Source of the DNA: Selenomonadaceae bacterium
Lineage (GTDB): Bacteria; Bacillota; Negativicutes; Selenomonadales; Selenomonadaceae
Assembly (NCBI GenBank): GCA_022786545.1
Contig: JALFXV010000018.1
Span: forward strand, 1 to 36,799
Direction: 5' to 3'
Length of the DNA stretch: 36,799 bases
Shown one piece after another: positions 399 to 32,776 of this stretch; the stretch's first letter is position 1; every line of letters starts with the position of its first letter. The position numbers were made by a program, and so were the translations under genes. Below the pieces are notes generated by a model, which saw only the letters and a program-made list of their open reading frames with translations, did no database searches and was not told where the DNA came from.

Positions 399-1616
399 AT
401 GAAGATTTTGATATTAGGCGGAGGCCCGGCAGGATTAACTTTAGCGAACAAAATTTCTATAGGGGGGGTACATGATTTTTTATTGCTTGAAGGAGAAGCA
501 CAGGCAGGTGGTTTATGCAGGTCTTTGGATGTTGATGGCTCTCCATTGGATATTGGTGGAGGACATTTTTTAGATGTCAGGAATCAAGATGTGGTAGAGT
601 TTTTGTTTTCATTTATGCCAGCTAGTGAATGGAATCAATATGACAGAAAAAGTTTGATTCATATACATGACCAATATATTGCACATCCATTTGAAGCTAA
701 TATTTGGCAGTTGAGCATAAATATGCAGGTGGATTATTTGGAGTCTATCGCGTGTGCAGGTGTCAATTCCTCAGAAAAGCAGCCTTTTGAATTTGTAGAT
801 TGGATTTATTGGAAGCTTGGGAAGAAGATTGCAGAAAATTATATGCTTCCATACAATCAAAAAATGTTTGGGAATAATCTTTCTGAGTTAGGAACGTATT
901 GGTTAAATAAATTGCCTAGTGTTAGCTTCAGGGAAACTTTGCAGTCATGCTTGGAACATAAACCTTATGGCAAGCTGCCAGGACATGCTAAGTTTTATTA
1001 TCCAAAGCAATTTGGATATGGAGAACTGTGGAACCGCATGGCAAATAATTTAGGTGAAAAGATTAAGTTTAATCAAAAGGTGAAAGGTATTGATTTTAAT
1101 ACAAGATCTGTTTGTACTGATGATGGAAAAAAATATGATGCGGACTTAATTGTTTCTACAATACCGTGGACATCGTTTGAAAAAATTATAGGAATGCCAT
1201 CAAACATTGTTGATGATATTAGAAAATTAAAACATACATCGGTAAAAGTTGAGTATTATGATAAGAATTTAGATACAGATGCTCATTGGATTTATTATCC
1301 AGAGTTATCTTTATCATATCACCGTATCTTGGCTAGACATAATTTTGTTCCCAATGGCAGAGGGTATTGGACAGAAACTAATATGGATCGTGATGAGATG
1401 AGGGAAAAAGGTGGGGTGTTCAGTTATGTAAATGAATATGCATACCCTCTTAATACTTTGCAAAAACCAAAAATTATGGACAGATTATTGTCATGGTCTA
1501 AAGATCATGGCGTAATTGGCTTAGGACGATGGGGTGAACATTCTCATTACAATTCAGATGTAACTGTAGAGCGAGCTATGGCATTAGCTGAAAGGATAAA
1601 TAATAATGAGTTGTAG
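399..1616 (+). CDS. FAD-dependent oxidoreductase, UDP-galactopyranose mutase / protoporphyrinogen oxidase-like
   Basis: The 405-residue protein opens with a textbook dinucleotide-binding fold: GGGPAG at residues 7-12, then an acidic residue in FLLLEGE at the end of the second strand. GGLCRS and DIGGGHFLD follow, typical of the flavin site of the UDP-galactopyranose mutase and protoporphyrinogen-oxidase-like amine oxidase group. A C-terminal FAD-binding segment (GLGRWGEHSHYNSDVTVERA) closes the fold. In polysaccharide clusters such proteins usually act on nucleotide sugars or lipid-linked sugars in the cytosol; the actual substrate is not visible. Its last 11 bases overlap the next gene, a glycosyltransferase, so the two are probably translated together. 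A run of seven G (462-468) lies inside the coding sequence. Codon use is AT-rich like the rest of the cluster. Confidence 0.75.
   Translation: MKILILGGGPAGLTLANKISIGGVHDFLLLEGEAQAGGLCRSLDVDGSPLDIGGGHFLDVRNQDVVEFLFSFMPASEWNQYDRKSLIHIHDQYIAHPFEANIWQLSINMQVDYLESIACAGVNSSEKQPFEFVDWIYWKLGKKIAENYMLPYNQKMFGNNLSELGTYWLNKLPSVSFRETLQSCLEHKPYGKLPGHAKFYYPKQFGYGELWNRMANNLGEKIKFNQKVKGIDFNTRSVCTDDGKKYDADLIVSTIPWTSFEKIIGMPSNIVDDIRKLKHTSVKVEYYDKNLDTDAHWIYYPELSLSYHRILARHNFVPNGRGYWTETNMDRDEMREKGGVFSYVNEYAYPLNTLQKPKIMDRLLSWSKDHGVIGLGRWGEHSHYNSDVTVERAMALAERINNNEL
462..468 (+). repeat. G7 homopolymer inside a polysaccharide gene
   Basis: Seven consecutive G occur near the 5' end of the flavoprotein gene, encoding part of the Gly-Gly-Val segment at about residues 22-24. 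The gene is in frame as read. In an AT-rich locus such a run stands out as a possible slippage site. Confidence 0.5.
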
Positions 1617-2583
1617 TATTATAACCAAACGAAAATATGAAACTTGGCCATCTTGGTATGTAGTTTATGAATGGGAAGATATTTTGTCTAAAAAACTTGG
1701 CATGGATTTGGAATTTTCAGATGGCAGGTCGTTAGAGTATAGAATTCAGCGCAAGTGGAAACGCATAGTTTTTAAGTATTTTCATAGAATCTCTTTTGGA
1801 AAAGTAGATGTGCAAAATATGCGATTGGCATTTATTATGAATGCTAATGATTACTATTTATATGTTGATAGGAACGTAATTCCTATTTTTCTTGATTTTC
1901 CAGAGAAAATGATTTCTGTTATTGCAGAAAAAACTAAAAATCTTCCTTTCTTTTTTGTAACGGCTTTAGAGATATGTGATTTATTAAAAGCTCATGGCAG
2001 TAAAAATGTTATATATATGCCAATATCTATATCTGATATGTATTTCAGTGAAGTTATTCCTAAGAAAACAATTGACGTTATTCAATTTGGACGAAAAAAC
2101 CCTGTTTTACATGAATGGATGATGGAATATGTAGCTGAACATCCTGATGTGGAATATGTTTATCAAAGCAATGATGGTTCTCTGACATATATATCTACAA
2201 CTAGAGGGAATTTAGGAAAATTTGACAAAAGAAATGAATATGTAGAATTACTCAAGTCGTGTCGAATTAGTCTTGTATCTACTCCTGGGATGGATAAGAG
2301 CCGTACTGATTTTGGAAATGTAGATTTTTTTACACCACGTTTTTTTGAAAGTGCTGCTTTTTATTGTCACATGCTAGGTAGATATATTGAAAATCAAGAA
2401 GCTGATTTTCTTAATATTTATGATATTTGTCCTAATGTAAAAACAAAGCAGGAGTTTTTTGACAATGTGGATAAACTGCTAAAAATTTCTAACGATGTTA
2501 ATGTGGACAAATATAAGGCATTTTTGCATTCTAATTTAACTAGCAAAAGAGCAGACTTAATCAAAGGCGCTTTGCAAATATAA
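1606..2583 (+). CDS. Glycosyltransferase, GT-B fold, CgeB-like
   Basis: This 325-residue cytosolic protein resembles the CgeB-like / family 1 glycosyltransferases of cell-surface polysaccharide clusters. The first half (PIFLDFPEKMI, YMPISISDMYF) matches the acceptor domain. The second half holds IDVIQFGRKNP and then STPGMDKSRTDFGNVDFFTPRFFE, the type of region where these enzymes bind the nucleotide sugar, with an invariant-looking R-F-F-E. There is no signal peptide or membrane span. It starts 11 bases inside the preceding flavoprotein gene, which implies translational coupling. Donor and acceptor sugars cannot be told from sequence. The family call is fairly safe, the specific role is open. 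Confidence 0.7.
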   Translation: MSCSIITKRKYETWPSWYVVYEWEDILSKKLGMDLEFSDGRSLEYRIQRKWKRIVFKYFHRISFGKVDVQNMRLAFIMNANDYYLYVDRNVIPIFLDFPEKMISVIAEKTKNLPFFFVTALEICDLLKAHGSKNVIYMPISISDMYFSEVIPKKTIDVIQFGRKNPVLHEWMMEYVAEHPDVEYVYQSNDGSLTYISTTRGNLGKFDKRNEYVELLKSCRISLVSTPGMDKSRTDFGNVDFFTPRFFESAAFYCHMLGRYIENQEADFLNIYDICPNVKTKQEFFDNVDKLLKISNDVNVDKYKAFLHSNLTSKRADLIKGALQI

Positions 2584-2638: not shown

Positions 2639-3157
2639 TTAAAGCAAAGCTAAATAATTTTGATATTCAGATTTTTCGATGCCCATGAAAGTTAAAGCTT
2701 TCTCAGGTGGCCAGTTTTGTGCGGACATGATGTTTTTCAAAGTTTTCAAATTAGCTTTGATAATGCCATGCTTTTCGCCACGCTTTTCCCCAAGGGCGAT
2801 GCCACGCTCCTCGCCGAGTTCGATGAGGGCTTTTCTTTCGTCTTCTGAGTTCCATTCAAAACCAAACATGTTAATAACCTCGCTTTCGTTGTCAGTAAGA
2901 TAGTCAGTCATAATGTCATTATTCAGGCAGTAGTCGATGGCCATACGGACTGAATCGTTTATGGAATTGTTCTGGTGGCGGTATTCCTTGAATTTATTGG
3001 AAAAATCGCTGTAGTCAGCCAGGGGCTTGCAGCTGGATTTCAGCTGCTGGCTCTTGCCGGGATTCAGGTTGTGGCAGTGGACGATGAGCTCCAGGTTGCT
3101 GTTGGGCACCATGAAGGCATCACTTAGCCGGAGTGTTTTCTGGTCAAAGTTGGTGTC
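2639..3157 (-). pseudogene. Rpn / PD-(D/E)XK family transposase, C-terminal remnant
   Basis: The reading frame encodes only the C-terminal part of the Rpn (recombination-promoting nuclease, PD-(D/E)XK transposase) family. Seen in it: LSDAFMVPNSNLELIVHC, a central helical region, and the family's charged repeat of the GEERG / GEKRG type before the end. A 157-residue product could start at the ATG whose complement ends at 3112, but family-like sequence (DTNFDQKTLRLSDAF) continues upstream in frame to a TAG at 3158-3160. The nuclease domain that should precede it is absent. It is therefore most likely a decayed insertion in the polysaccharide locus. Alternatively the leftover C-terminal domain is still translated; short C-terminal forms of Rpn proteins have been reported to act as inhibitors of the full-length nuclease. 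Confidence 0.75.
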
Positions 3158-3280
3158 CTAGCTTCGTATGCTAATTTTATAACACTTCAGGACAAAAAGA
3201 TAGATATTATGCTTCATAAATGAAAAATTTGGCATTTATATAAAAATTTTTTACTATAAAGTACAGGAGAAGTGATAGTT

Positions 3281-3883
3281 ATGTTCTTCATGAATGTTCT
3301 TCGAAAGATAAATCATGGTTTTGATAAAACATATAATTTTTCCTTATTAAAGTGGAAGAAATGCAAAATTGGCAAGAATGTCAGAGTGAATGGTCGATTA
3401 AAAGTATACGGAAATAAAGGCGGCTTATCTATTGGAGATGGCGTAATCATCAATTCCAATATAGATTACAATCCAATTGGTGGCTGGTCTGGATGTTCTT
3501 TTTTGTGCATAGATAATGGTTCGATAACAATCTGTGAAGGAGCTGGAATATCTAACAGTGCATTTTGCTCTGCTTCAAGTATTGTTATAGAAAAACAAGT
3601 GTATATCGGGGGGGGATGCCGCATTTATGATACGGATTTTCACTCAATAGATTTTAAGCAAAGAATGCAATCTCCTGATGTACACATAAAAAGCAAACCT
3701 GTAGTGATTAAGCGCGGAGCATGGATTGGTGGCGGAAGCATTATCCTAAAAGGCGTAGTGATTGGCGAATATTCTGTCATAGGCGCTGGCTCTGTTGTGA
3801 CTAGAAGCGTGCCAGCAGGAGAAATATGGGCAGGAAATCCTGCCAGATTTATTCGTAAGTTTGATGAAATAAAAGAAGGATAG
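3281..3883 (+). CDS. Hexapeptide-repeat acyltransferase (WcaF/LbH type)
   Basis: The 200-residue product is a left-handed beta-helix acetyltransferase as used to decorate O-antigens and capsules from acetyl-CoA. Hexapeptide turns are visible from GGLSIGDGVII through VIGEYSVIGAGSVVTRSVPAGEIWAGNPARFIRKF, the classic C-terminal signature. The catalytic His is probably the one in IYDTDFHS. I chose ATG 3281 because AGGAGA (3265-3270) lies 10 bases before it; a GTG at 3272 is in frame but too close to that site. The flippase gene begins 4 bases after the stop, so the two form one unit. A G8 run (3608-3615) lies in frame just before the catalytic His. Confidence 0.85.
   Translation: MFFMNVLRKINHGFDKTYNFSLLKWKKCKIGKNVRVNGRLKVYGNKGGLSIGDGVIINSNIDYNPIGGWSGCSFLCIDNGSITICEGAGISNSAFCSASSIVIEKQVYIGGGCRIYDTDFHSIDFKQRMQSPDVHIKSKPVVIKRGAWIGGGSIILKGVVIGEYSVIGAGSVVTRSVPAGEIWAGNPARFIRKFDEIKEG
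3608..3615 (+). repeat. G8 homopolymer inside the acetyltransferase gene
   Basis: Eight consecutive G encode Gly-Gly-Gly in VYIGGGCRIYD. The gene is in frame with eight; gain or loss of one would truncate the protein in the catalytic region. Confidence 0.5.
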
Positions 3884-3887
3884 CAAA

Positions 3888-5189
3888 ATGACACTTCGTA
3901 GCAAACAATTAAGAAAAAATATCGGGCTGGCATTTGTGTTGAAAGCCATTGGCGTAGGAATAAGCTTTTTGCAGCTTCCTTTGACGATTAGTTATCTTAC
4001 AGAGGTTGAGTATGGCATCTGGGTGACTGTGTTTTCTACGATGAACTGGATAAATGTATTGGATATGGGGATAGGGTTAGGGGTGCGCAATAAGCTGGCA
4101 ATATCTGTAAGCAGCAATGATATTGCCAGTGCAAAAGCATATATATCCACTGGTATTTTTTCCATGTGCTGTATTGCAGCTTTATTATTGGTTGTATTGA
4201 TTTGTGGCCTGCAGTTTGTTGAACCGCAGGCGTTGTTTAATACTCAGGATATTGCCCGGGAAGATCTGTATAGCATAGTTTTTTGGACGGGGATATTTGT
4301 GATAATGACTTTTGCTCTATCAATAGTCAATCAATTTTACTATGCCTATCAGGATGCTGCTAAAACTGGCATGATAAGTGTGTTTGGTTCTGTCATGATG
4401 CTAGGAATGGTGTATTGGCTAACCTTGCAGGAATCACATAATTTATTATATTTTGTTTTTGCATTTGGAATTTCTTCTGTGGTTTCAAAGGCGGTATATA
4501 TTGCATACTTCTTTGTTAAAAACTCTGATGTATTTCCCAGCATTTCGACAATATCCATCAGGAAAATGTATGAGATTTCCGGTATAGGTATAAAATTTTT
4601 CATCATCCAGATATGTACGATTTTCTGTTTTTCGATGATGAATATCTTGATTACCCAAATATTGGGGCCACAGTATGTGCGGACTTATGATGTTATTTTT
4701 AAGTTGCTGAATTTTTTCCTTATGTTGCAGACATTGATGCTGACACCGCTATGGTCGGCATATACAGATGCTTATGTTAAGCAGGATTATGTTTGGATAC
4801 GCAAGGCATTTCATAAAACAAATCTTTCCTTAGTGGTTTTGACTGTTCTTATGGTATTGGTTGCCTGGAAAATAGATTTTTTCATTTTGTTATGGTTGCA
4901 TATACATGTTGATTATAGTTATTCCTTACTGTTTTTGATGGTCACATATCAGTTTTTAATGCTTCTGCTTGGAAATAATTGCTATCTGTTAAATGGCATA
5001 GGAGAAATTGATTGGCAGCTTTGGGCTTTTATCGTGGCAGCGCCCTTGATGGTGCCGATGGCATATTGCTTTTCGGTTTATCTGAATATGGGGCTGGTGG
5101 GTATAGTTTTAGCTAATGACATATCTATGTTGATAGTTGTGGCAACAGTTATGTTAAATGTTCAAATGCTATTTAAGAAATGGAAGTAA
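3888..5189 (+). CDS. Polysaccharide flippase, PST/Wzx family
   Basis: A 433-residue integral membrane protein with about a dozen hydrophobic segments spread along its whole length, as in polysaccharide transporters of the MOP superfamily. The opening, with a basic patch (RSKQLRKNIG) then LPLTISYLTEVEYGIWVTVFS, is the familiar N-terminus of these flippases. They move undecaprenyl-linked repeat units from the inner to the outer face of the cytoplasmic membrane. It lies between an acetyltransferase (4 bases upstream) and a membrane acyltransferase (25 bases downstream), fitting a role in O-antigen or capsule export. The ribosome binding site AAGGAT overlaps the end of the preceding gene. Specificity cannot be read from sequence. 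Confidence 0.85.
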   Translation: MTLRSKQLRKNIGLAFVLKAIGVGISFLQLPLTISYLTEVEYGIWVTVFSTMNWINVLDMGIGLGVRNKLAISVSSNDIASAKAYISTGIFSMCCIAALLLVVLICGLQFVEPQALFNTQDIAREDLYSIVFWTGIFVIMTFALSIVNQFYYAYQDAAKTGMISVFGSVMMLGMVYWLTLQESHNLLYFVFAFGISSVVSKAVYIAYFFVKNSDVFPSISTISIRKMYEISGIGIKFFIIQICTIFCFSMMNILITQILGPQYVRTYDVIFKLLNFFLMLQTLMLTPLWSAYTDAYVKQDYVWIRKAFHKTNLSLVVLTVLMVLVAWKIDFFILLWLHIHVDYSYSLLFLMVTYQFLMLLLGNNCYLLNGIGEIDWQLWAFIVAAPLMVPMAYCFSVYLNMGLVGIVLANDISMLIVVATVMLNVQMLFKKWK

Positions 5190-5214
5190 TTTTTTGCGGA
5201 AGGTTGACTTTATA

Positions 5215-6349
5215 ATGGAAATGATTAAGCTGTTCACAGCACAGCACAGCACAGCACAGCACAGCACAGCACAGCACAGCACAGCACAGCACAGCACAGC
5301 ACAGCACAGCACAGCACAGGAATGTTTATCTGGATGTAGTTAAAGGTATAGCGATTATTTCTGTTGTGCTCGGGCATTGCATCCAGTTTGGCAGTGGCAG
5401 GGAATTTTTGCAGTCGGAAGCTTTTTTTGCTGATGCTGTTTTCAAGGCTATATATGGCTGCCACATGGCGTTATTTATGCTGGTCAGCGGATATTTATTT
5501 GGGATGAGCCTGAAGAGACATACGTGGCGTCAGGTGTTTGCAAGCAGGTTTACATCATTACTGCTTCCTTTGATGTCGTGGGGACTGATAGGTGTTGTGG
5601 TAGCTGTTATGCATTATCAGAGTATTGTTCCACTAATCAAAGAAATAGTGTGGCGGTATTTGCACAGCATGTGGTTCATCTGGGCAATTTTTTACAATTC
5701 TTTGTTTGTTCTGATGCTAAGGCGTTTTTGCAAGGATAGTGCATTGATTTATTTTATTGCCTGGCTGCTGCTTTTTGTGATACCTGATGCCTTTAATTTG
5801 TCCTTGTATAAATACATGTATCCTTATTTTTTGTGTGGATATCTGACATGCAAATTTGATTTGCTGGCAAGGCTACAAGATAGAATTTGTAGTAATTGGG
5901 GATTGCTGATGGCTTGTGCGGTAAGTTATGTACTGCTGATGCAGTTTTTTGTGTATGAAAGCTATATTTATACATCGCATTATAGTATTGTCAATTTCAA
6001 AACGGGGGCATTTGACTGGTGGAAGCTGGGGAATGATATATACAGAATGGTAACTGCTTTTGCTGGCTCGAGCCTGGTGCTATTGTCTGTATATGCTCTC
6101 TGGAAGAAAACAAGCCAGTTATCTATATGGAAGACTGTTGCTAAGCTGGGGAAAGCTTCGCTGGTAATTTATCTCTTCTCGGGTGAGGTTATTTTTTCTC
6201 ATATTTTACCTAAAATTACCCAAAGTATTGCACCAAGCTGTTTTATAAATTTATTGGAAACTGTAATTATTTTGTTTGTATGCTATTTAGTTTATATGAT
6301 AATGAGAAATGTGACTGTTTTAAATAAATTATTTTTAGGTGGCAGGTAG
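5215..6349 (+). CDS. Phase-variable membrane acyltransferase (acyltransferase 3 family), OFF as read
   Basis: The body of the protein, from RNVYLDVVKG at 5318 to the stop at 6349 (343 codons), is an acyltransferase-3 / OafA-type membrane enzyme. It has about ten hydrophobic segments and the catalytic His in VVLGHCIQFG, and would O-acylate surface sugars. Upstream in this frame there is no start codon before a TGA at 5222. The plausible start, ATG 5215 (with GGAAGG at 5198-5203), lies in another frame, separated from the body by 17 copies of CACAG. With 17 copies translation ends at 5343 after 42 residues. With 18 or 15 copies the frames join; 18 would give 379 residues with a (Thr-Ala-Gln-His-Ser)n linker. 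A GTG at 5366 could only start a protein lacking part of the first membrane span. Slipped-strand mispairing is the natural explanation. Confidence 0.85.
5235..5319 (+). repeat. Pentanucleotide tract (CACAG)17
   Basis: Seventeen perfect tandem copies of CACAG, 85 bases without interruption, lie 20 bases after the acyltransferase ATG at 5215. A 5-base unit shifts frame with each copy gained or lost, and the perfection of the array suggests it is actively changing. In frame with the ATG it encodes repeated TAQHS. Confidence 0.98.
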
Positions 6350-6410: not shown

Positions 6411-7268
6411 ATGCCAGAGGATATGTCAGCTTTTTCAACTGTCAGCTCATCCAGGATATTGTATACTCCTTCTTCTTTTGCGCGGTTTTCTCTGCTGCAT
6501 TTGCAGGAAGCCGGTTCCTTGCAGGCTGTGCAGCCACATACCAGCAGGCGCGAAAAATTGCAGTCGTATTTGTGCTTTGTGGTGTGTCAGGGGAGTGGCA
6601 GGCTGTTTTATGAAAATACGGAGTATTGCTTGTCTGCTGGGGATGTGGTGTTTATTGATTGCCGCAAGGGATATAGCCATGTGACTGAGGATGATTTGTG
6701 GTCCCTGCGGTGGTGCCATTTTTATGGCCTTTCGATGCCGGATATTTACGCGAAATACAGGGAGCGTGGGGGCAAGGCTGTTTTTCATCCTGATGATGCC
6801 GGGGCTATTGAGGGCATTTTGTCCGGTTTATATGACCTGGCTTCCTCGTCTGATTATGTTCGTGATATGCGCATCAATGAGAAGCTGAATGAGCTTTTGA
6901 CTATTCTGATGGAGCAGTCATGGCATCAGGAAGTGGCTGCCGCCTCCAAGAAGCGCATGGAGCTGAACGAGATAAAAAGGTATCTGGACGAAAACTATGG
7001 CAGGAAAGTATCACTGGAAGACCTGGCCAATAAGTTTTTTGTGAGCAAGTGCTATTTGTCCAGAATTTTTAAGGACAGCTATGGCTTCACCATAAACAAA
7101 TACATTTTATTTAAGCGGATTACGGAAGCAAAGCGGCTTTTGCGGTTTTCGGCTAAAAATGTGGATGAGATTGCAGATTCCGTGGGGATGAATGATGCAA
7201 ATTATTTTAGCCGGATGTTTCGCAAGGTAGAAGGCATGAGCCCCAGTGAGTATCGGAAAAGATGGTAA
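6411..7268 (+). CDS. AraC family transcriptional regulator
   Basis: A 285-residue regulator. The first half is a cupin-like sensory domain (VVCQGSGRLFYENTEYCLSAGDVVFIDC is the characteristic effector-binding beta strand pair). The C-terminal ~100 residues are the double helix-turn-helix: YLDENYGRKVSLEDLANKFF, then VSKCYLSRIFKDSYGFT, then the second HTH ending GMNDANYFSRMFRKVEGMSPSEYRKRW, the AraC signature. Start ATG 6411 has an excellent ribosome binding site (AAGGGGGGAG, 6 bases upstream). It follows the acyltransferase gene by 61 bases and no terminator is evident between them. No target gene is obvious; the bases are less AT-rich here, marking the right edge of the polysaccharide island. 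Confidence 0.88.
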   Translation: MPEDMSAFSTVSSSRILYTPSSFARFSLLHLQEAGSLQAVQPHTSRREKLQSYLCFVVCQGSGRLFYENTEYCLSAGDVVFIDCRKGYSHVTEDDLWSLRWCHFYGLSMPDIYAKYRERGGKAVFHPDDAGAIEGILSGLYDLASSSDYVRDMRINEKLNELLTILMEQSWHQEVAAASKKRMELNEIKRYLDENYGRKVSLEDLANKFFVSKCYLSRIFKDSYGFTINKYILFKRITEAKRLLRFSAKNVDEIADSVGMNDANYFSRMFRKVEGMSPSEYRKRW

Positions 7269-20739: not shown

Positions 20740-25342
<4,603 letters not shown>

Positions 25343-25445: not shown

Positions 25446-25724
25446 TTATTTGAATAACTCGCTGTGGGAGCCCAGGCGGGCGAGGAACAGCGTATCACCC
25501 TCAATGCGGTAGATGAGCAGCCAGTCCGGCTGTATGTGACATTCACGGAAATACTTGTAGTTGCTGCTTAATTTATGGTCGTGGTATTGCAGGGGGAGCT
25601 TTTGGCGGTTGAGGAGAAGAATTAATACTTTTTCCAGCAGCTCAAGCTTTTTACCTTGACGGATGGCACGTTCAAAATCTTTTTTGTATTGGCTGGATTC
25701 TTTGACATACAGCATCATAATCAC
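25446..25724 (-). CDS. yafQ: YafQ-type mRNA interferase toxin (RelE superfamily)
   Basis: A 92-residue RelE-fold toxin of the YafQ branch, a ribosome-dependent mRNA endonuclease. The catalytic His/Asp set is present: His in YHDHKLSSNYKYFRECHIQPDWLLIYR (His-Asp-His, then His and Asp) and the C-terminal His in RLGSHSELF. The longest frame begins at GTG (complement of 25722-25724), overlapping the antitoxin stop. In-frame ATGs at the complement of 25716-25718 and 25713-25715 are equally credible. The overlap with the antitoxin gene keeps the two proteins in balance through coupled translation. Confidence 0.9.
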   Translation of the reverse strand: MIMMLYVKESSQYKKDFERAIRQGKKLELLEKVLILLLNRQKLPLQYHDHKLSSNYKYFRECHIQPDWLLIYRIEGDTLFLARLGSHSELFK

Positions 25725-25999
25725 CGCTGAAAACGTTTGGCAAGATATTCGGCTCCCGGTTCTGCAACCATTTTTGCATCATAAAATTCTTCCATAGCTG
25801 CTTTGGTGGCATAGTTGGGAATTTCTTCGGGCAGACTGATTTCAAATGGTATTTTGCGGTGGTTTACTACCGATTGGGCGAAAATTGTAAATGCCGAGGT
25901 CATTGTTAAACCAAGCTTTTTAAAAATTTCCTCGCTTTGTTCCTTCAGGTTAGTGTCCATGCGGAATTGCACCATGCTGGTAGCTGCTTTGGCTGGCAT
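25721..25999 (-). CDS. dinJ: RelB/DinJ-type antitoxin
   Basis: A 92-residue antitoxin. The N-terminal half is the ribbon-helix-helix DNA-binding domain of RelB/DinJ: VQFRMDTNLKEQSEEIFKKLGLTMTSAFTIFAQSVV. The C-terminal part (EEFYDAKMVAEPGAEYLAKRF) should wrap the toxin. An AGGAGG ribosome binding site precedes the ATG. It leads a two-gene leftward operon. A palindrome over its promoter suggests autorepression, as known for the family. Confidence 0.92.
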   Translation of the reverse strand: MPAKAATSMVQFRMDTNLKEQSEEIFKKLGLTMTSAFTIFAQSVVNHRKIPFEISLPEEIPNYATKAAMEEFYDAKMVAEPGAEYLAKRFQR

Positions 26000-32111: not shown

Positions 32112-32776
32112 ATGAAGAAAAAGAGATGGCTGACAGCAGGTATTATTCTTGCTTTAAGCGCACATGCGCCGTTGGCTTTGGCTGCTGAAGATGGTGCATC
32201 AGGAGGGAATGATAGTACAAGTACAGTGGATGTGTACGAGATGGATGATACTATCGTAATTGGCGGTTGGCAATTTTCCATACGGATATAACAGACAATA
32301 TTACCGCCAAGTGGAAAAGTTCAAAAAGTTCTTATACCTATACCAATGAAGATTTCCGCAACACGGGGATAGAGCTGTCCTGCGATATTAGCGGTACCAA
32401 TGGCTGGTCGTATCAGTATGGTGTTACCTGGCAGAATCCTGAGGTGAAAAGTGAGACGAAGAAGCTGGGATGGGAACGTACTCAGGGCAAGCTGCAGCTT
32501 ACCGGCGGCATTACCTATAAAAAAGATAAGTGGACATCGTCACTTTCCGGCTCATATCTGTGCAGCCGTGTAATGAATCCTTCCACTGCTCCTGCCTATG
32601 CTACCAAGCCGTATTTCCTGACTTCCTGGCGTACCAGCTACGCTCCTGACAAGAATACCGAGGTGGCGCTTTCTGTAGATAACATTTTGGATCGCAAGGA
32701 TAATTTGAGCCATAGCTCGTCCTATTATTATTCTGCGCCGGTGAATTATCTGCTGAGTTTCAGTTACAAGTTCTAA
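32112..32776 (+). pseudogene. TonB-dependent receptor with large internal deletion and frameshift
   Basis: The gene starts well: GGGAGG binding site, ATG 32112, a signal peptide (MKKKRWLTAGIILALSAHAPLALA) and a TonB box like that of BtuB (YEMDDTIVIGG). After about 50 codons, near 32262-32275, the sequence jumps to the end of a beta barrel in another frame (AIFHTDITDNITAKWKS ... LLSFSYKF, frame of 32267-32776). The plug and most of the barrel, about 1.3 kb in relatives, are gone, and the first frame stops at TAA 32288-32290. The remaining barrel end has the normal terminal Phe. It is a deleted paralogue of the receptor at 27198. Confidence 0.88.

Follow-up and report, generated by a model that had tools for sequence, protein, structure and literature searches.

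The putative polysaccharide cluster and its last gene

The window, meaning the whole 36,799-nt stretch of Selenomonadaceae DNA that was analysed, carries a cluster of genes on the forward strand whose last member encodes an acyltransferase, with a long pentanucleotide repeat between its start codon and its body (Table 1). The genes of the cluster have a GC content of 0.31-0.38, as against 0.52-0.57 in the downstream core genes, and the acyltransferase gene was found in none of the 15 other genomes of the genus. Judged by its gene content, this low-GC accessory cluster looks like one for synthesis of a surface polysaccharide. The flippase-like gene ends 25 nt before ATG 5215, and it is likely that these two genes are co-transcribed. 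A generic promoter scan of the cluster was uninformative, with 28 promoters found and 28.0 expected. Opposite the cluster genes a 157-residue open reading frame (2639-3112, minus strand) gave no Pfam match; its C-terminus appears Rpn-type-like by eye.

Table 1. Features of the acyltransferase locus, in window coordinates
Feature	Position	Strand	Remarks	Basis
Flavin amine-oxidase-like protein with NAD-binding domain	399-1616	+		PF01593
Glycosyltransferase-like protein	1606-2583	+	no Pfam match	by eye
Hexapeptide acyltransferase	3272-3883	+		PF00132
Polytopic, flippase-like protein	3888-5189	+	no Pfam match	by eye
Likely ribosome-binding site GGAAGG	5198-5203	+	for ATG 5215; 11 nt spacing, somewhat long	predicted from sequence
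TTGACT box	5204-5209	+	25 nt before tract; weak -10 match follows	putative function
Start codon ATG	5215-5217	+	second in-frame ATG at 5221-5223	sequence, translation
OFF reading frame	5215-5343	+	42 codons then stop, 17-copy state	translation
(CACAG)17	5235-5319	+	encodes TAQHS repeats; stop-free in all frames	TRF, translation
Acyltransferase-3 body	5321-6349	+	342 residues and stop; not in frame with ATG 5215 in the 17-copy state	PF01757
First in-frame GTG of body	5366-5368	+	residue 16, within first membrane segment and Pfam domain	sequence
AraC-type regulator	6411-7268	+	downstream, outside the switch	PF12833

The repeat consists of 17.0 perfect CACAG units according to TRF, and its first base lies 20 nt after the A of ATG 5215; in shuffled windows the expected number of runs of even three consecutive units is 0. 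Translation from this ATG gives MEMIKLF(TAQHS)n...ECLSGCS, ending after 42 residues as stated by the initial annotation, which had also placed the start and the acyltransferase body in different frames. Both statements were borne out, the body frame being open from 5321 to the stop codon at 6347-6349. Recomputing the frames for 12 to 21 copies gave full-length proteins of 369, 374, 379 and 384 residues at 12, 15, 18 and 21 copies, which reproduces the lengths previously given for 15 and 18 copies and adds two further open states, while the remaining copy numbers within 13-20 yield products of only 34-47 residues. The locus thus has, close to the 5' end of a gene, a long and perfect repeat whose unit length is not divisible by three, and the copy number of this stop-free tract sets whether start and body agree in frame, as in translational contingency genes. 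The 17-copy OFF state is that of a single draft assembly (117 contigs) and not of a population. A search of the same genome revealed no second CACAG tract and no ACAG or AGCA tetramers in six copies, and a 294-kb sample of it contained no further 4-6-nt repeat with at least four copies.

The body matches PF01757 over its residues 1-326 (profile positions 1-322 of 326; E 4.3e-26), with 92.2 bits against a curated cut-off of 31. The sole NCBIfam match, NolL (NF042426), spans the full body, but its 96.3 bits are far from the equivalog cut-off of 425, and the protein is not an equivalog of this fucose acetyltransferase. Between the body and five relatives 38 alignment columns are invariant. Reading of the body frame found no in-frame start ahead of GTG 5366, in agreement with the earlier description of a body lacking a start of its own before a membrane-internal GTG; this codon lies in the first hydrophobic segment, and a functional protein is unlikely to result from initiation there.

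Repeats at the same site in relatives

Relatives of the body were sought in 189 genomes of the family, and the nearest were found in G184 (47% identical), G152 (43%) and G150. In G184 the contig opens inside an (ACAG)20 tract that abuts the RNxYLD start of the acyltransferase body, and in G017 it opens inside (AGCA)14, directly adjoining the same start; these genomes represent two genera other than that of the window. In G319, a genome that belongs to another family of this class, (GACA)6 and degenerate units lie directly before RNxYLD/RNxFLD, and a second acyltransferase-3 gene of G152 has an (ACAG)n tract with an assembly gap inside it. The contig of G119 begins 5 nt ahead of the body (L183:1-60), as if the assembly had broken at a repeat, and this copy of the gene looks internally shortened. 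The G150 relative has no N-terminal repeat; a G9 run is situated at its frame break (L272:1792-1800), possibly another repeat type for the same acyltransferase gene. The orthologue in G152 and the gene in G142 have ordinary N termini, and 30 core acyltransferase-3 genes from the family all lack a 4-6-mer repeat nearby. The presence of different repeat units at one position in the same gene subfamily suggests that the switch arose repeatedly at this site. CACAG counts in related genomes had been put forward earlier as a check on switching; they were looked for, the gene being absent from the genus outside this genome (0/15), while farther relatives do have repeats at the site, built from other units.

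Tetranucleotide tracts of this kind extend to other genes. Twelve of the 189 family genomes contain (ACAG)6 or longer, and we read 16 (ACAG)n stretches of the family, with Pfam run on representatives. Many are N-terminal, either in acyltransferase-3 genes (L242, L251, L252) or in family-2 glycosyltransferase genes (L244-L246, L248-L250). The reading frame agrees with the ATG in L242 (25 copies, in a complete genome), in the second tract of L246 (20 copies) and in the first tract of L249 (7 copies), and it is out of frame in L245, the second tract of L249 and L250; such a mixture of ON and OFF frames is expected of independent switches. The leader of the (ACAG)n glycosyltransferase genes (L244-L250) resembles that of the (ACAG)n acyltransferase genes. 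Beyond the class, the order ATG, (CACAG)12 and acyltransferase-3 is seen in a Candidatus Riflebacteria sequence.

We conclude that the locus is very probably a phase-variable acyltransferase gene, translationally switched by its repeat and assembled in the OFF state. The initial annotation had proposed such a switch, and the reading is now supported by the different repeats at the same point in relatives, the mixed frames in the family and the repeat-free core paralogues. In the proposed mechanism, the gene would be transcribed from upstream, and slipped-strand mispairing during replication would make the CACAG array between ATG and body gain or lose units. Counts that are multiples of three would then give the full-length enzyme with an N-terminal (TAQHS)n linker, and all others a stop after 34-47 residues (13-20 copies), the 17 copies of the assembly being OFF. 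ON cells would probably add an acyl group to the surface glycan made by the cluster, and OFF cells would not; this role in glycan modification is suggested by the cluster neighbours, and the acyl group, its acceptor and the benefit to the cell are putative. As the initial annotation inferred, O-acylation of the surface polysaccharide may be switched, for example in evasion of phage.

A TTGACA-like box ahead of repeat tracts

The tract of the window begins 25 nt after a TTGACT box, and a similar spacing recurs elsewhere. In a set of 113 CACAG/ACAG tracts drawn from many phyla, 36 have TTGAC 25-32 nt upstream, with only about a dozen boxes elsewhere in the scanned 80 nt. A sigma-70-like score of at least 9 whose -10 element is no more than 8 nt away from the tract is seen in 45 of the 113, and shifted offsets give 2-7. 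Since the threshold and the distance band for this set were picked after some loci had been inspected, an independent set of viral contigs was used, in which (ACAG)n tracts have a box at 24-33 nt in 61 of 101 cases and 4 boxes elsewhere. With similar flanks removed, the preferred distance was seen for several units: 31 boxes at 25-28 nt versus 4 elsewhere for ACAG, 24 at 23-29 nt versus 16 for ACAGC, 9 at 20-34 nt versus 5 for AAGC and 7 at 24-27 nt versus 4 for AGAGC. For AATC, ATTG, AGTC and ACTG there was little or no enrichment of the box after the same removal of similar flanks; control units were scanned in the viral contigs. Many of the viral tracts share gene families (for instance those with a recurrent ARKYLT motif), a redundancy which the flank filter reduces and may not remove. 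The match to TATAAT is also better behind tract-associated boxes than behind other TTGACA sites, with values of 4.48 versus 2.60 in genomes and 3.51 versus 2.61 in viral contigs. Overall, ACAGC, ACAG, AAGC and AGAGC tracts in several phyla and in phage contigs tend to begin 23-29 nt downstream of a TTGACA box, and in most cases a -10-like hexamer follows that box. Example loci for the spacing are L080:5127-5281, L294 and L246:2300-2420.

The position of the ATG relative to the box is less easily accommodated. Of 31 bacterial cases, 24 have an ATG between the box and the tract, where shuffling gives 13; in the group of the window all 12 have one, against 5.9 after shuffling. Many of the tracts in viral contigs appear intragenic, and there the frequency of the ATG is not above that obtained by shuffling. 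An ATG between the -35 and -10 elements would be missing from a transcript initiated at the tract. As the tract of the window begins where TTGACT would place transcription starts, some of its transcripts may lack the start codon.

We offer the spacing as an observation together with a hypothesis, and not as a mechanism. The hypothesis, which we regard as rather doubtful, is that repeat tracts of several units form or stay unstable where transcription initiates, after a TTGACA-N16-18-TATAAT-like element, even inside genes and in both bacteria and phages; the window tract would be one weak case of such promoter anchoring. If true, initiation would drive slippage, and a promoter-dependent mutator module could precede unrelated genes; if the spacing holds, the origin and instability of such switches become directly testable. 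We found no report of short-repeat tracts beginning 23-29 nt after TTGACA.

The same spacing bears on how the window locus itself should be read. Were the CACAG tract to act mainly at transcription initiation, it would sit where a TTGACT-N16-18-(-10) promoter is predicted to start transcription, and its copy number would tune the leader RNA or the use of start sites. This is in line with the strong preference of such tracts for a distance of 23-29 nt after TTGACA, with the better -10 matches behind tract-associated boxes, and with the Firmicutes and Veillonella tracts that sit between a -10 element and a gene and have no long reading frame. However, a transcript initiated within the tract could not make the enzyme, because downstream of the repeat the acyltransferase body offers no start codon that could be used; the repeat unit is not a multiple of three, and the -10 match at the window locus is only 3/6. 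We find an action of the tract mainly at initiation improbable. Still less probable is a gene that is decaying or OFF for good, or a wrongly assembled copy number, without any switching: the single draft assembly, the lack of the gene in the rest of the genus (0/15) and the truncated or frameshifted appearance of the relatives in G119 and G150 would fit, but the body frame is open throughout and its conserved residues are present, decay is unlikely to form or preserve a pentamer array of this length and perfection, and other repeats occupy the site in relatives.

Leader tracts outside the acyltransferase genes were seen at two kinds of loci. In a genus of the class whose radC locus matches that of Veillonella parvula SKV38, the pentamer of the window recurs, as CTGTG, in a conserved (CTGTG)11-15 tract between TATAAT and radC (L090:4000-4074 and L575-L581). 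Its copy number differs by four units between L090 (15 copies) and L578 (11 copies), the flanks of which are near-identical, and thus changes faster than the sequence around it. Instability of this unit within the class speaks for the contingency reading of the window locus. In a second group (L155, L067, L085, L095, L022 and L099) the leaders consist of a promoter, (CACAG)n, a common AACTGCGCTCTTTT-like stretch and a larger terminator-like hairpin, followed by a gene for a secreted protein. Of these, the CACAG tract of G164 (L155) was considered as a second coding switch and rejected, as it is leader-like and no long reading frame follows it. Scans of L155, L067 and L085 gave no match to a known RNA family in Rfam at the gathering threshold. 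Control of attenuation by frame-dependent leader translation in the Firmicute leaders was set aside, since transcription from the box would begin downstream of the ATG.

Comparison with known switches

The closest functional parallel to the translational switch proposed here is oafA of H. influenzae, a phase-variable acyltransferase-3 gene with GCAA repeats, ON at 11 copies and OFF at 9-10, whose product O-acetylates a surface glycan with LOS heptose as acceptor (PMC9558356, PMC6479036). Like oafA, the window gene is an acyltransferase-3 gene with ON and OFF states set by repeat number; unlike this gammaproteobacterial gene it has CACAG units, a putative acceptor and a host in the Negativicutes. 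We propose that it may work like oafA, as a functional analogy and with no claim of orthology. The CACAG unit itself is shared with the type III mod gene of Mannheimia (Pasteurella) haemolytica, reported in PMC5149525, citing Ryan and Lo 1999, to be phase-variable by slipped-strand mispairing; the product of mod is a DNA methyltransferase, whereas that of the window gene is a predicted glycan-modifying enzyme. Salmonella oafB, a phase-variable acyltransferase-3 that acetylates O-antigen, alters recognition by phage and antibodies (PMC9558356), but it is switched epigenetically from upstream, in contrast to the coding repeat of the window. NolL, a fucose acetyltransferase, resembles the window protein along the full body, though with 96 bits versus 425.

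The caution on novelty in the initial annotation was apt, given CACAG in Mannheimia mod and the phase-variable acyltransferase-3 of H. influenzae. The principle is already known from pathogens, and what is new is the host, the unit and the variety of repeats that occur at a single site. A full-text literature search on phase variation and Negativicutes returned matches on other topics, as far as titles and the beginnings of abstracts indicate. The locus would add to this poorly studied class a repeat-switched glycan acyltransferase and, more widely, a group of acyltransferase and glycosyltransferase genes that bear repeats.

Three other features of the window may be mentioned. A YafQ-type toxin and RelB-type antitoxin pair (PF15738, PF04221) is encoded at 25446-25999 on the minus strand, and a C-terminal TonB-receptor barrel fragment (PF00593) at 32267-32776 is probably a gene remnant. 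At 23252-23340 the N terminus of a LigA-like DNA ligase is extended by low-complexity VNVNVNVN codons, forming in-frame hexamer-like repeats.
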